Shown here: positions 1,074 to 10,159 of the stretch, piece by piece
Layout of the letters: each line of letters starts with the position of its first letter
Numbering within the stretch: position 1 is the stretch's first letter
NCBI GenBank assembly: GCA_902826335.1
Contig: CADEEL010000009.1
Location: 4,920-68,919, forward strand
Source of the DNA: an uncultured Alphaproteobacteria bacterium
GTDB lineage: Bacteria; Pseudomonadota; Alphaproteobacteria; Caulobacterales; Aquidulcibacteraceae
Direction of reading: 5' to 3'
Length of the DNA: 64,000 nt
Translations under genes and position numbers: made by a program
Notes under the pieces: model-generated
Told to the model about the DNA's origin: nothing
Database searches by the model: none
The model's input: the letters and a program-made list of their open reading frames with translations, nothing else

Positions 1074-1102
1074 TTGACATGTGCAACCATTGCACATATA
1101 GC
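1074..1102 (+). promoter_or_regulatory. Promoter with embedded palindromic operator of the DUF4160/DUF2442 pair
   Basis: TTGACA at 1074-1079 and TATAGC at 1097-1102 are separated by exactly 17 bp, a good sigma-70-type promoter. The spacer is occupied by a perfect inverted repeat, ATGTGCAA (1079-1086), CCA, TTGCACAT (1090-1097). The expected start of transcription, about 7 bp after the -10 box, falls at about 1109, next to the ATG at 1111, so the mRNA may be leaderless. An operator lying between the -35 and -10 boxes fits autorepression by the HTH protein encoded second in the pair. The sequence pattern is direct; the regulation is inferred. Confidence 0.6.
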
Positions 1103-1110
1103 GATCGCGA

Positions 1111-1338
1111 ATGCCGAGGCTGAAGCGCTTTTCGAGCGCGGAGATCGCGATGTTTTTCGCCGATCACAATCCACCGCACTTTCATGTGCTCGGGCGCGGC
1201 GGCGCCGCGCAGGTGGCGATTGAATCGTTGGAAGTCATTGCGATCAGCGGGCGTGTTGATCTGCGCGAGGCGCTGGAATGGGCGGCGGCGAACCGGGACG
1301 TGCTGTGGGCGAAGTGGAACGAGTTAAGCGGATCATGA
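1111..1338 (+). CDS. DUF4160 family protein, toxin-antitoxin-like first gene
   Basis: This 75-residue protein opens with MPRLKRFSSAEIAMFFADHNPPHFHV, the signature of the DUF4160 family: a short basic start followed by an F-x-x-D-H-x-P-P-H-x-H-V block. Its biochemical activity is not established. DUF4160 genes are often found beside DUF2442 genes, as here, and such pairs are commonly suspected to be toxin-antitoxin modules. The stop codon overlaps the next start (ATGA at 1335-1338), so the two proteins are probably translated together. No Shine-Dalgarno motif precedes the ATG, and a promoter ends only about 8 bp upstream, which suggests leaderless translation. Confidence 0.75.
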   Translation: MPRLKRFSSAEIAMFFADHNPPHFHVLGRGGAAQVAIESLEVIAISGRVDLREALEWAAANRDVLWAKWNELSGS

Positions 1339-1766
1339 TTGGCAAGATTGTAAGCGTCGCCGCGCCTGGCGATCGGCGATTGGAAATTGGCTGGGACGAT
1401 GGCTGCGTCGCGCCCGTCGATTTCAGCGACCTGATCGAAGCGCACAAGGCGCTCGCGTCTCTGAAGAAGAAGGCCGAGTTTGCGCGCGTGACAGTGAGCG
1501 GCGATGGCTGGTCGCTCGAATGGCCGTGCGGAATTGATTTTGGCGCCGAGCAAGTGCGCCGCTGGGCGGATGAACAAGCCGGCGAAATCATGCGCGTCGC
1601 CGATTTCCGCGCCTGGATGGATGAGCATGAATTGACGCAGGAAGCCGCCGCGCAGGCGCTCGGCCTCTCACGCCGCATGATCGCGTATTATCTCAGCGGA
1701 GAGAAAGTGATTCCGAAAACGGTGATGCTGGCGACGGAGGGATGGGCGGCGAGGGTGGAGGCTTGA
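1335..1766 (+). CDS. DUF2442 domain protein with C-terminal helix-turn-helix
   Basis: This 143-residue protein has two parts. Residues about 1-80 look like DUF2442 (GWDDGCVAPVDFSDLI and a WPCGIDFGAE block), and residues about 90-135 form an XRE-like helix-turn-helix (ELTQEAAAQALGLSRRMIAY, then LSGEKVIP). I chose the ATG at 1335 because it overlaps the upstream stop as ATGA; an in-frame start at 1278 would lie deep inside the previous gene. The DNA-binding half makes it the likely repressor of the palindromic promoter at 1074-1102 and the antitoxin-like partner of the DUF4160 protein. Domain calls are by pattern; the toxin-antitoxin role is inferred. Confidence 0.75.
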   Translation: MIGKIVSVAAPGDRRLEIGWDDGCVAPVDFSDLIEAHKALASLKKKAEFARVTVSGDGWSLEWPCGIDFGAEQVRRWADEQAGEIMRVADFRAWMDEHELTQEAAAQALGLSRRMIAYYLSGEKVIPKTVMLATEGWAARVEA

Positions 1767-4416: not shown

Positions 4417-5190
4417 TCAATTCTGAAACGTATCGCCCAGATAGACCTTCCGCACGTCGGGATTGGCCAGGATCGCCTGCGGCGTCCCGGAGAACAGCAC
4501 ATCGCCATCATACATGATGTAGGCCCGGTCAACGATGCTCAATGTCTCGCGGACATTGTGATCGGTGATGAGAATGCCCAGCCCGCGATCCTTCAGAAAA
4601 CTGATGAGGTCGCGGATGTCATGGATGGCGATGGGATCGATCCCGGCGAACGGCTCGTCGAGCAGCATGTAGGACGGCCGCGTCGCCAAGGCGCGCGCGA
4701 TTTCCACGCGCCGCCGCTCGCCGCCCGAAAGCGCCGAAGCAGGGGAATCGCGCAGATGATCGATGTGCAACTCGCGCAGCAACTGGTCCACGGCGTCCTG
4801 CCGCTTTCCCTTGTCGCTTTCCACGAGCTCGACGATGGCCATCACGTTTTGCTCAACGGTCAGACCACGGAAGATCGACGGCTCCTGGGGAAGATAGCCG
4901 ACGCCCAGGCGCGCACGCTGGTACATGGGCAGGCCCGTGACGTCCACGCCGTCAATGGTGATCTGCCCCTGGTCCACGCGTACGAGCCCCGTGATCATAT
5001 AAAAGCAGGTGGTCTTGCCCGCTCCGTTGGGACCCAGGAGGCCGACGATCTCTCCGCGCCGCAATTCGAGGGATACATCCCCCACGACACGCCGCTTACG
5101 GTAGGACTTACCGATGCGGATCGCGGCGAGCCCGGTTTCAACGGTCTCGTCCGCGTCGATCGAGCGGCCTAAAGCGCCCTCAGGGCTCAT
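4417..5190 (-). CDS. lptB: LPS export ABC transporter ATP-binding protein LptB
   Basis: LptB is the cytoplasmic ATPase that, with LptF and LptG, drives lipopolysaccharide from the inner membrane onto the Lpt bridge. The 257-residue protein has a Walker A motif GPNGAGKTT at residues 53-61, the Q-loop in YLPQEPSIF, the ABC signature LSGGERRRVEIARAL, Walker B YMLLDEPFAGIDP and the switch His in LITDHNVRE. A 20-residue N-terminal extension precedes the core. It lies 43 bp downstream of lptA and upstream of rpoN, so it is part of a lptC-lptA-lptB-rpoN transcription unit. lptF and lptG are not in the window. Confidence 0.97.
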   Translation of the reverse strand: MSPEGALGRSIDADETVETGLAAIRIGKSYRKRRVVGDVSLELRRGEIVGLLGPNGAGKTTCFYMITGLVRVDQGQITIDGVDVTGLPMYQRARLGVGYLPQEPSIFRGLTVEQNVMAIVELVESDKGKRQDAVDQLLRELHIDHLRDSPASALSGGERRRVEIARALATRPSYMLLDEPFAGIDPIAIHDIRDLISFLKDRGLGILITDHNVRETLSIVDRAYIMYDGDVLFSGTPQAILANPDVRKVYLGDTFQN

Positions 5191-5233
5191 ATCAATCCAT
5201 CGCCGCTAAGAATTCGTAAGCACAGGCTAAAAA

Positions 5234-5782
5234 TTACTGCCCTTGCCGGGCGCCGGAATTGCGCGGACGGAAAACGCCCTGCACGCGGCCCCGTCCCGCT
5301 CCGGGCGCCAGCACCGTGCGCCCGCTATTGACGTTGAGCACCAGCGTCTCGCCCCGCAGCACATTCGAATCGCTGGCCACCACGACATTGCCGGAGAACG
5401 TTACGCTGTCCGTGGTGACTTCATAGACCGCGCGATCGCCGCGCGCTTCCTGCTGCGGGCGGATATAATAGACTTGGCCTTCGGCGATCATCCGGGTGAT
5501 GTCGCCCGATCCGACGCCCGAACCGCCGCCGCCCCCTGCGGCGAAGAACAGTGTGAGCGTGTCGGAGCGCAGGCGCGCATCGCCCTGCACGACATCGACA
5601 TCGCCCGTCAGCACCAGCCGGCGTTCCGTGTCGAAATATTCCAGCGTCCCGGCCGAGTAGGAAATCGGCCCGCCGCTTGAGCTCAGCTGCGCATAAGCGG
5701 GCGTGGCCGCCGCGCCGATCAGCGCGGCCGCGCACCCGAGCGCGCCGAGAACAGTTCTTTGCGCCACGGTCGAGTGCGCCAT
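5234..5782 (-). CDS. lptA: LPS transport periplasmic protein LptA
   Basis: LptA forms the periplasmic bridge that carries LPS between LptC and LptD. The 182-residue protein starts with a Sec signal peptide (hydrophobic GALGCAAALIGAA, cleavage near AYA-Q) followed by an OstA-type beta-jellyroll: ISYSAGTLEYFDTERRLVLT, GDVDVVQGDARLRSDTLTLF, AVYEVTTDSVTFSGNVVVAS and LRGETLVLNVNSGRTVL. An unusual Gly-rich insert (about residues 75-90) interrupts the jellyroll. The start at 5782 is supported by an AGGAG site inside the lptC stop region, and a longer frame upstream would overlap lptC. It belongs to the lptC-lptA-lptB unit. Confidence 0.92.
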   Translation of the reverse strand: MAHSTVAQRTVLGALGCAAALIGAAATPAYAQLSSSGGPISYSAGTLEYFDTERRLVLTGDVDVVQGDARLRSDTLTLFFAAGGGGGSGVGSGDITRMIAEGQVYYIRPQQEARGDRAVYEVTTDSVTFSGNVVVASDSNVLRGETLVLNVNSGRTVLAPGAGRGRVQGVFRPRNSGARQGQ

Positions 5783-8452: not shown

Positions 8453-8862
8453 GACGCGGTCTCCGCAAGGAGGCTTTGGATGAGCGGCAGGTCCGCCGGC
8501 GGCATGGGATAGCGGGAAAGCTCCGCAGGGAGCGCCCAGGCGAGCGCGCTGTGCTCGCGCGCGACCGGCTCGCCCGCCCAGCGTCGCGTCACATAAAGCG
8601 GCATCAGCAGGTGGAAATCGGGGTAGGCGTGCGAGGCGAAGGCGCGGGGCGCTAGCGCGTCGGTCTCGATGATCACGTCCAGCTCCTCTCTCAATTCGCG
8701 CGCAAGCGCCGCTTCGGGACGCTCGCCGGGTTCGACCTTGCCGCCGGGAAACTCCCAGAGGCCGGCCATGGATTTGTGCTCCGGCCGCTGTGCGATGAGC
8801 ACACGGCCCCGCGCATCAATGAGCGCGGCGGCCACGACCAGAACCAGGCGAGTATGCGTCAT
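8449..8862 (-). CDS. mutT: MutT-type Nudix 8-oxo-dGTP diphosphatase
   Basis: The enzyme hydrolyses oxidised purine nucleotides such as 8-oxo-dGTP to protect against mutation. In 137 residues it has the MutT start (VVAAALIDARGRVLIAQRP), WEFPGGKVEPGE and a complete Nudix box G-x5-E-x7-RELREEL. The C-terminal half (ASHAYPDFHLLMPLYVTRRW, AWALPAELSRYPMPPADLPL) matches MutT rather than generic Nudix proteins. In the same leftward series as argJ, it overlaps the Flp pilin gene downstream by 4 nt. Confidence 0.9.
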   Translation of the reverse strand: MTHTRLVLVVAAALIDARGRVLIAQRPEHKSMAGLWEFPGGKVEPGERPEAALARELREELDVIIETDALAPRAFASHAYPDFHLLMPLYVTRRWAGEPVAREHSALAWALPAELSRYPMPPADLPLIQSLLAETAS

Positions 8863-8914
8863 GTTTTCTTAAGGCCGCGTGCGCGCGGAGGGTGAATAGG
8901 CGTTAATTGCCAAA

Positions 8915-10159
8915 TCAACTCCGATAGTCCCCGTTGATCTCGACATAGCGCTTGGTGAGGTCGCACGTATGCATGACGGCGCGCCCGGCGCCGACGCCGA
9001 CATCGACGGAAATCTCCAGCTCCGCGCCGCGCATATAAGCGCTCATTTTCGTTTCATCGTAAGTCGGCGCGACGCGGCCGTTTCGCGCCGCCCAATGCGG
9101 CCCGAATTTCACGCTGATCTTGTCCCGTTCGATCGGCTGATCGGCGCGGCCCACGGCCATCACGATCCGCCCCCAATTGGCGTCCTCGCCCGCGATCGCG
9201 GTTTTGACCAGCGGGCTTTCGCAAATCGTCCGTGCAATGATCTTCGCCGAGGAATCGTTTTTCGCGCCGGTGACGCTCACCTTGACCAGCTTTGTCGCGC
9301 CCTCGCCGTCGCGCACGATCTGGATCGCCAGATCGGCCAGCACGCGCGAAAGCTTCTTCTTGAAATCCGCGAGCAGAGGGTCGGCCGCGCTTGTGATCCT
9401 CGCATGCGCCGCCTGGCCCGTCGCGATGAGCAGCACGCAATCATTGGTCGAACGATCCCCGTCGACCGTGATCGAATTAAAACTCGCCGCGTTCGCCTCG
9501 CGCAGCAGCGCTTTGAGCACGCCCGCCGGCAGCTTGGCGTCGGTGAACACGAAGGCGAGCATGGTCGCCATGTTCGGCGCGATCATGCCCGAGCCCTTGG
9601 CGATTCCGGCGAGCGAGACCTTGCTTGGCCCGATCTTCGCCGCCCCGCCCGCGCCCTTGGGAAACGTGTCCGTCGTCATGATCGCGCGCGCCGCCGCTTC
9701 CCAGTCGACTGGCCCAAGGCCAGCCGCCAACGCTGGCAACACGGCGCGCGCCTTTGCGTCGTCGAGCGGAACGCCGATCACGCCGGTGGACGCCATCAGC
9801 AAGTCTTCCGCCCGCGCACTGATCGCAGCGCCCGCCGCCTCAAGCGCCCGGCGCGCCGCCGCATAGCCCTCCGGCCCGGTGAACGAGTTGGCGCAGCCCG
9901 CATTGGCCAGGAGCCCACGCACGCGCCCGCGCCCTGCCTTAAGCGCCGCCTTGCACCAATCCGTGGGCGCCGAGCCGACGGAATTGGTCGTAAAGACGCC
10001 CGCCGCCGTCGATCCCGGCGGCGTCGTCACAAAGAGAAGATCGGGCCGAACATGCTTGTAATACCCGGCCCGCCCGATCGCCGCTGCTACGCCGGCGATC
10101 CGGGGCAGGGCGGGAAAGGCGGCGGGCGCCAGCGGCGATGCCGCCCCCGGCCCACTCAC
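8915..10159 (-). CDS. argJ: Bifunctional ornithine acetyltransferase/N-acetylglutamate synthase
   Basis: ArgJ transfers the acetyl group from N-acetylornithine to glutamate (and can also use acetyl-CoA) in the cyclic arginine pathway. The 414-residue precursor cleaves itself into two chains at the Thr of KGSGMIAPNMATM (Thr199), which becomes the N-terminal nucleophile of the beta chain. Other family marks are GVFTTN, LANAGCANSFTG, STGVIG and SFNSITVDGDRSTND. Its start overlaps the stop of the upstream parvulin lipoprotein gene by 4 nt (10156-10159), so the two are cotranscribed despite unrelated functions. Confidence 0.97.
   Translation of the reverse strand: MSGPGAASPLAPAAFPALPRIAGVAAAIGRAGYYKHVRPDLLFVTTPPGSTAAGVFTTNSVGSAPTDWCKAALKAGRGRVRGLLANAGCANSFTGPEGYAAARRALEAAGAAISARAEDLLMASTGVIGVPLDDAKARAVLPALAAGLGPVDWEAAARAIMTTDTFPKGAGGAAKIGPSKVSLAGIAKGSGMIAPNMATMLAFVFTDAKLPAGVLKALLREANAASFNSITVDGDRSTNDCVLLIATGQAAHARITSAADPLLADFKKKLSRVLADLAIQIVRDGEGATKLVKVSVTGAKNDSSAKIIARTICESPLVKTAIAGEDANWGRIVMAVGRADQPIERDKISVKFGPHWAARNGRVAPTYDETKMSAYMRGAELEISVDVGVGAGRAVMHTCDLTKRYVEINGDYRS

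Follow-up and report, generated by a model that had tools for sequence, protein, structure and literature searches.

DUF4160/DUF2442 toxin-antitoxin modules form a small but established type II kind, known from Dickeya dadantii 3937 and Thermus thermophilus. In D. dadantii, DhiT is toxic while DhiTA is not, and the two genes are co-transcribed with the toxin first (PMC8198452); the available part of the DhiTA report does not describe an operator. The Thermus module PEM stabilises plasmids, and deletion of its second open reading frame gave a plasmid that could not be introduced (PMC12724237).

The locus analysed here lies in a stretch of 64,000 nucleotides from an uncultured alphaproteobacterium, referred to below as the window. 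As in DhiTA, the DUF4160 toxin comes first and is overlapped by the DUF2442 antitoxin. PEM shares this gene order, with a second open reading frame that is required to tolerate the first, but it is plasmid-borne and encodes an antitoxin of 92 aa (locus L134) with no helix-turn-helix (HTH) domain and no operator of the kind described below. Against the equivalog models of DhiT (NF048015) and DhiA (NF048016), the locus scored 33.7 and 17.9 bits, far below the cut-offs of 100 and 200 bits. Moreover, HTH proteins of the HI1420-like antidote family are what the DhiA model matches in its C-terminal part, whereas the HTH of the locus is NE0471/Aca1-like. The locus was therefore classified as a variant with a different DNA-binding module. 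A search of the phylum with the DhiA model returned no genuine DhiTA locus and no match above the cut-off. The Acidovorax pair Aave_1720/1719, which surfaced together with DhiTA, was rejected as a relative, being BrnT/BrnA-like.

The antitoxin has the DUF2442-HTH layout of NE0471 from Nitrosomonas europaea (PDB 2AUW), a protein for which we know of no published function, and a near-identical recognition helix. The full-chain match (phmmer E 5e-24 over residues 4-139, Foldseek E 4e-12) places it with this protein. Its HTH is also 33-35% identical to that of the anti-CRISPR-associated repressor Aca1, and Aca1 sites share the core GCA-N5-TGC with the palindrome of the locus (site sequence from PMC9410881). 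For Aca repressors, the inverted repeats are placed within the core promoter (PMC9410906). In contrast to Aca1-type repressors, which are stand-alone HTH proteins of anti-CRISPR operons, govern anti-CRISPR genes and lack DUF2442, the HTH of the locus is fused to DUF2442 and its partner is a DUF4160 protein; the half-site is TAGGCACA for Aca1 versus TAGTGCAA at the locus. By analogy with relatives in which toxicity is known, the pair, a DUF4160 gene overlapping a DUF2442 gene, appears to belong to the type II toxin-antitoxin modules of the DhiTA/PEM kind. No defence system was assigned to the locus, the sole PADLOC match being a weak one of the HTH to mad1.

The gene pair and its promoter

The window opens inside leuB, which ends at 1032, and the following features were found downstream:

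1074-1079, + strand: -35 element TTGACA (6/6 to consensus)
1079-1097, + strand: palindrome ATGTGCAA-CCA-TTGCACAT (8+3+8, zero mismatches), predicted operator
1080-1096, + strand: promoter spacer of 17 bp between the -35 and -10 elements
1097-1102, + strand: -10 element TATAGC (4/6 to consensus)
1109-1111, + strand: predicted transcription start with a leader of 0-2 nt, from the -10 spacing
1111-1338, + strand: DUF4160 toxin gene, 75 aa (Pfam; weak match to the DhiT model NF048015)
1335-1766, + strand: gene of the 143-aa antitoxin, a DUF2442 protein with an HTH at its C-terminus (Pfam; collinear with NE0471, 2AUW)
1671-1697, + strand: HTH recognition helix RRMIAYYLS, residues 113-121 (a helix in predicted model mb53c277e5581)

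Pfam upheld the families and the pairing given in the original prediction, with DUF4160 (E 1e-12) in the toxin and DUF2442 (E 5e-9) and the C-terminal HTH_3 (E 1e-5) in the antitoxin all exceeding the curated cut-offs. The ATGA overlap of toxin stop and antitoxin start, at 1335-1338, was found as proposed. Every coordinate checked for TTGACA, the palindrome, TATAGC and the first ATG also agreed, and the -35 and -10 elements at 17-bp spacing do enclose a perfect palindrome, which shares the last -35 base and the first -10 base. TTGACA is separated from the end of leuB by 41 bp. An automated promoter scan of the window missed this promoter because it demands T at the last -10 position. Since it occupies the promoter spacer and is conserved in relatives, the palindrome is strongly predicted to be an operator.

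The toxin gene can begin no earlier than the ATG at 1111, since an in-frame TAG is located at 1099-1101. The fold of the toxin was predicted at pLDDT 94. A structure search revealed no credible solved relative of this fold (best E 0.37), a sequence search of solved structures with the toxin likewise gave nothing credible, and no enzymatic activity is therefore proposed. The toxin is intact and keeps the PHxH and Trp residues that are invariant in the alignment of relatives and represent a candidate active or binding site.

In relatives such as L016 (toxin start at 2153, - strand), L047 and L078, early stops or frameshifts interrupt the toxin frame while the antitoxin frame beside it is intact, the pattern expected of toxin-antitoxin decay, and many relatives are metagenome assemblies in which such breaks may be assembly errors. 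These loci, together with L011, which keeps just the last 24 antitoxin codons, would fit a view of the pair in the window as a decayed or domesticated remnant, in which the HTH protein still autoregulates but the DUF4160 protein has lost its toxicity. Given the intact frame of the window's toxin, its retained PHxH and Trp residues and its coding constraint, we regard this explanation as unlikely and favor a functional toxin-antitoxin pair.

Several observations concern the surroundings of such pairs. A gene for a putative nuclease of the Uma2 family (PF05685, E 1e-25) lies just downstream of the pair in the window, at 2289-2855 on the - strand. Sphingobium plasmids (L104 at 4759-5426 and 8626-9274, L105 and L106) carry the same kind of pair near replication and partition genes, and the DUF4160/DUF2442 pair is next to or near replication genes on Thermus and Azospirillum plasmids. 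Plasmid pMI4 contains two DUF4160/DUF2442 pairs and a RelB/YafQ-type pair. The 24 codons in L011 (3001-3072) are joined to unrelated DNA as the remnant of a lost module. A search of phage records found no relatives.

Predicted operator and recognition helix in related loci

The analysis of palindrome conservation covered 61 loci, none identical to another and all with a DUF2442 partner; 45 have an HTH and 16 do not. They were obtained by genome searches, one contig scan and from plasmid records, with the taxonomic spread of relatives resolved to the level of same order, class or phylum. The query core GTGCA-N5-TGCAC was taken from the window, and the 90 nt preceding each toxin gene were scored for its best match; since the core derives from the window itself, the remaining loci constitute a fair test. 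A score of at least 8/10 was obtained in 36 of the 45 HTH-bearing loci and in none of the 16 HTH-less ones (Fisher p 1e-8), the counts being of loci that are phylogenetically correlated. Among HTH-bearing loci, 30/45 scored at least 9 and 21/45 reached 10/10, while no HTH-less locus (n=16) scored above 7. Elsewhere in the same loci, the background rates were 4.3% (at least 8), 0.26% (at least 9) and 0.003% (10/10). The upstream regions are otherwise unrelated, with 43/45 independent at 70% identity. The palindrome is thus conserved in homologous pairs, the point on which the original prediction had called for an alignment.

Matched controls gave the same picture. Locus L010, with a toxin 71-73% identical, has no HTH and no operator, and this is also true of L002, the second DUF4160/DUF2442 copy of the host genome:

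G000:C7:70197-70689: second DUF4160/DUF2442 pair of the host genome (L002, L012)

The rule that links HTH and operator is not universal, since nine HTH-bearing loci lack the operator; several operator-less loci, among them L050 and L082, contain other palindromes. In L083, L089 and L023, two tandem operator copies are apparently present upstream of the toxin gene.

The presence of the operator also followed the recognition helix. Two adjacent arginines occur in this helix in 32 of the 36 operator-bearing loci but are absent from all nine HTH loci that lack the operator (p 8e-7, counted by locus, some of the loci being related). Within a single genus, L026 combines the helix SRRTVAYY with the operator, while L027 and L028, with SRPSVVKY and SRASVIRY, have neither the operator nor a separate promoter. 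In L080, L083 and L084 the first arginine is missing and the half-sites are ATGCAA/TTGCAT, which is no more than suggestive.

Short palindromes are common, and inverted repeats of similar strength occur nearby in relatives, so the palindrome could in principle be a chance repeat or the site of another host regulator unrelated to the antitoxin. We consider this very improbable, because across families and orders the palindrome follows both the HTH and the helix with which it would read DNA. In the 2.9-Mb host genome, RTGCAANNNTTGCAY has two sites, the toxin promoter and one imperfect match, which apparently falls where a glyoxalase-like coding sequence begins. With these two genomic sites only and a motif recurring upstream of relatives, the palindrome is more than chance. 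The HTH of the antitoxin is very likely the binder of the palindrome, as predicted from this co-variation, and would silence its own promoter; the earlier proposal of the HTH as a natural repressor is supported accordingly, with binding as a sequence-based prediction. The same proposal had described the compact autoregulation as new. This holds for the operator itself, whereas autoregulation in the family is already known from DhiTA, the promoter of which is repressed by the antitoxin and more strongly by the complex (PMC8198452).

In the search of the order, hits confined to the HTH (L029-L044) were set aside, as they are apparently separate single-domain proteins without DUF2442. They represent a single-domain HTH protein widespread in another family of the same order, with an HTH related to that of the antitoxin (about 40-50% identity).

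The predicted leaderless toxin start

Placing the transcription start seven bases after the -10 element gives position 1109, and positions 1109-1111 are all purines. A Shine-Dalgarno site is absent at the toxin gene (anti-SD duplex energy of -0.2 kcal/mol), and RNA folding around the toxin start showed nothing unusual. The distance from the operator end to the ATG is 9-16 nt in 20 of the 36 operator-bearing loci, hereafter the leaderless class, in which the predicted leader is about 0 (-4 to +3); in the other 16 it is 19-62 nt. Promoter boxes at fixed offsets from the operator provided a safer test than the separate choice of a -10 element, which was optimised over a few offsets. TTG is located 7-8 bases before the operator in 16/20 loci of the leaderless class and 8/16 of the others, compared with about 3-5% at control offsets, and TA directly follows the operator in 19/20 and 14/16, respectively.

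Shine-Dalgarno energies were weak in the leaderless class (above -3 in 15/20 loci) and stronger in the leader class (p 3e-4). Exceptions were found: in five of the 20 loci the energy is SD-like, at -6 or below, and in L007, also of this class, the best-scoring -10 element puts the start inside the open reading frame. Among the nearest relatives, L004 and L006 have a longer spacing from operator to ATG, and the promoter boxes of L004 are poor. The two classes intermix on the antitoxin tree, which forces at least four changes, and the geometry is therefore not that of one frozen ancestor. The predicted leaderless geometry was thus borne out as a spacing class that recurs in more than half of the operator-bearing loci.

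The same pair and operator could also be combined with a toxin that is not leaderless, transcribed from upstream by read-through from leuB or translated from Met14 (ATG at 1150). A terminator scan found none between the leuB end and the promoter, and read-through could therefore add transcripts that carry a long leader; GGAG is present a few bases before the ATG at 1150, and in some relatives the toxin gene has a leader that includes a Shine-Dalgarno site. On the other hand, comparison of relatives showed that toxin codons 2-13 vary mostly at third positions, a pattern absent from the 39 nt that precede the ATG, and that the position of Met14 is occupied by Leu or Val. Since codons 2-13 evolve as coding sequence, a start at Met14 is argued against. 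Moreover, 20 loci whose flanks are unrelated share a conserved promoter immediately ahead of the ATG. We therefore judge a non-leaderless toxin to be improbable, although its chances are a shade better than those of a decayed remnant. Judging from promoter geometry, the toxin message probably starts at the first codon.

Leaderless messages are common in Caulobacter, where 375 are reported (PMC4117421). In Mycobacterium tuberculosis, 32 of the 37 toxin-antitoxin operons with a primary start are leaderless; they resemble the locus as pairs without a leader but belong to other families and another phylum, and the leaderless state was measured there and is predicted here (PMC3898074). Against this background, the prediction is plausible and not surprising.

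Proposed autoregulation and its significance

In the proposed mechanism, the DUF2442 domain at the antitoxin N-terminus would bind and neutralise the DUF4160 toxin, as suggested by DhiTA and the Thermus PEM. The NE0471/Aca1-like HTH would bind GTGCAA-N3-TTGCAC, presumably as a dimer in view of the palindrome and of the Aca proteins. Since the palindrome fills the 17-bp spacer, antitoxin binding should exclude RNA polymerase, which would set up an autoregulatory loop, and the toxin would probably reinforce this loop as a co-repressor. Transcripts from the active promoter would begin no more than about 2 nt from the toxin ATG and be leaderless, and the antitoxin would be made by translational coupling via the ATGA overlap. 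We assign a probability of about 80% to this reading as a whole, that of a self-repressing DhiTA-like toxin-antitoxin operon with an operator in the promoter spacer, a leaderless toxin and a coupled antitoxin.

The anatomy and families of the locus, the conservation of operator and spacing, and the co-variation of HTH and operator are established at the sequence level. They favor, with rather less certainty than the reading of the locus itself, a branch of DUF2442 antitoxins that have an Aca1-like HTH and use the 17-bp spacer as operator, in part as a 40-bp cassette of promoter, operator and leaderless start. In this branch the helix would set specificity, and the leaderless state would have been gained or lost several times.

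A barely characterised toxin-antitoxin family thereby gains an operator that is precise and portable, as well as a regulator-operator code that can be tested. The findings connect an antitoxin DNA-binding domain with the Aca1 repressors of anti-CRISPR operons, and they offer a natural setting in which one self-repressed toxin operon, present on chromosomes and on sphingomonad plasmids, can be compared in leaderless and leadered form.
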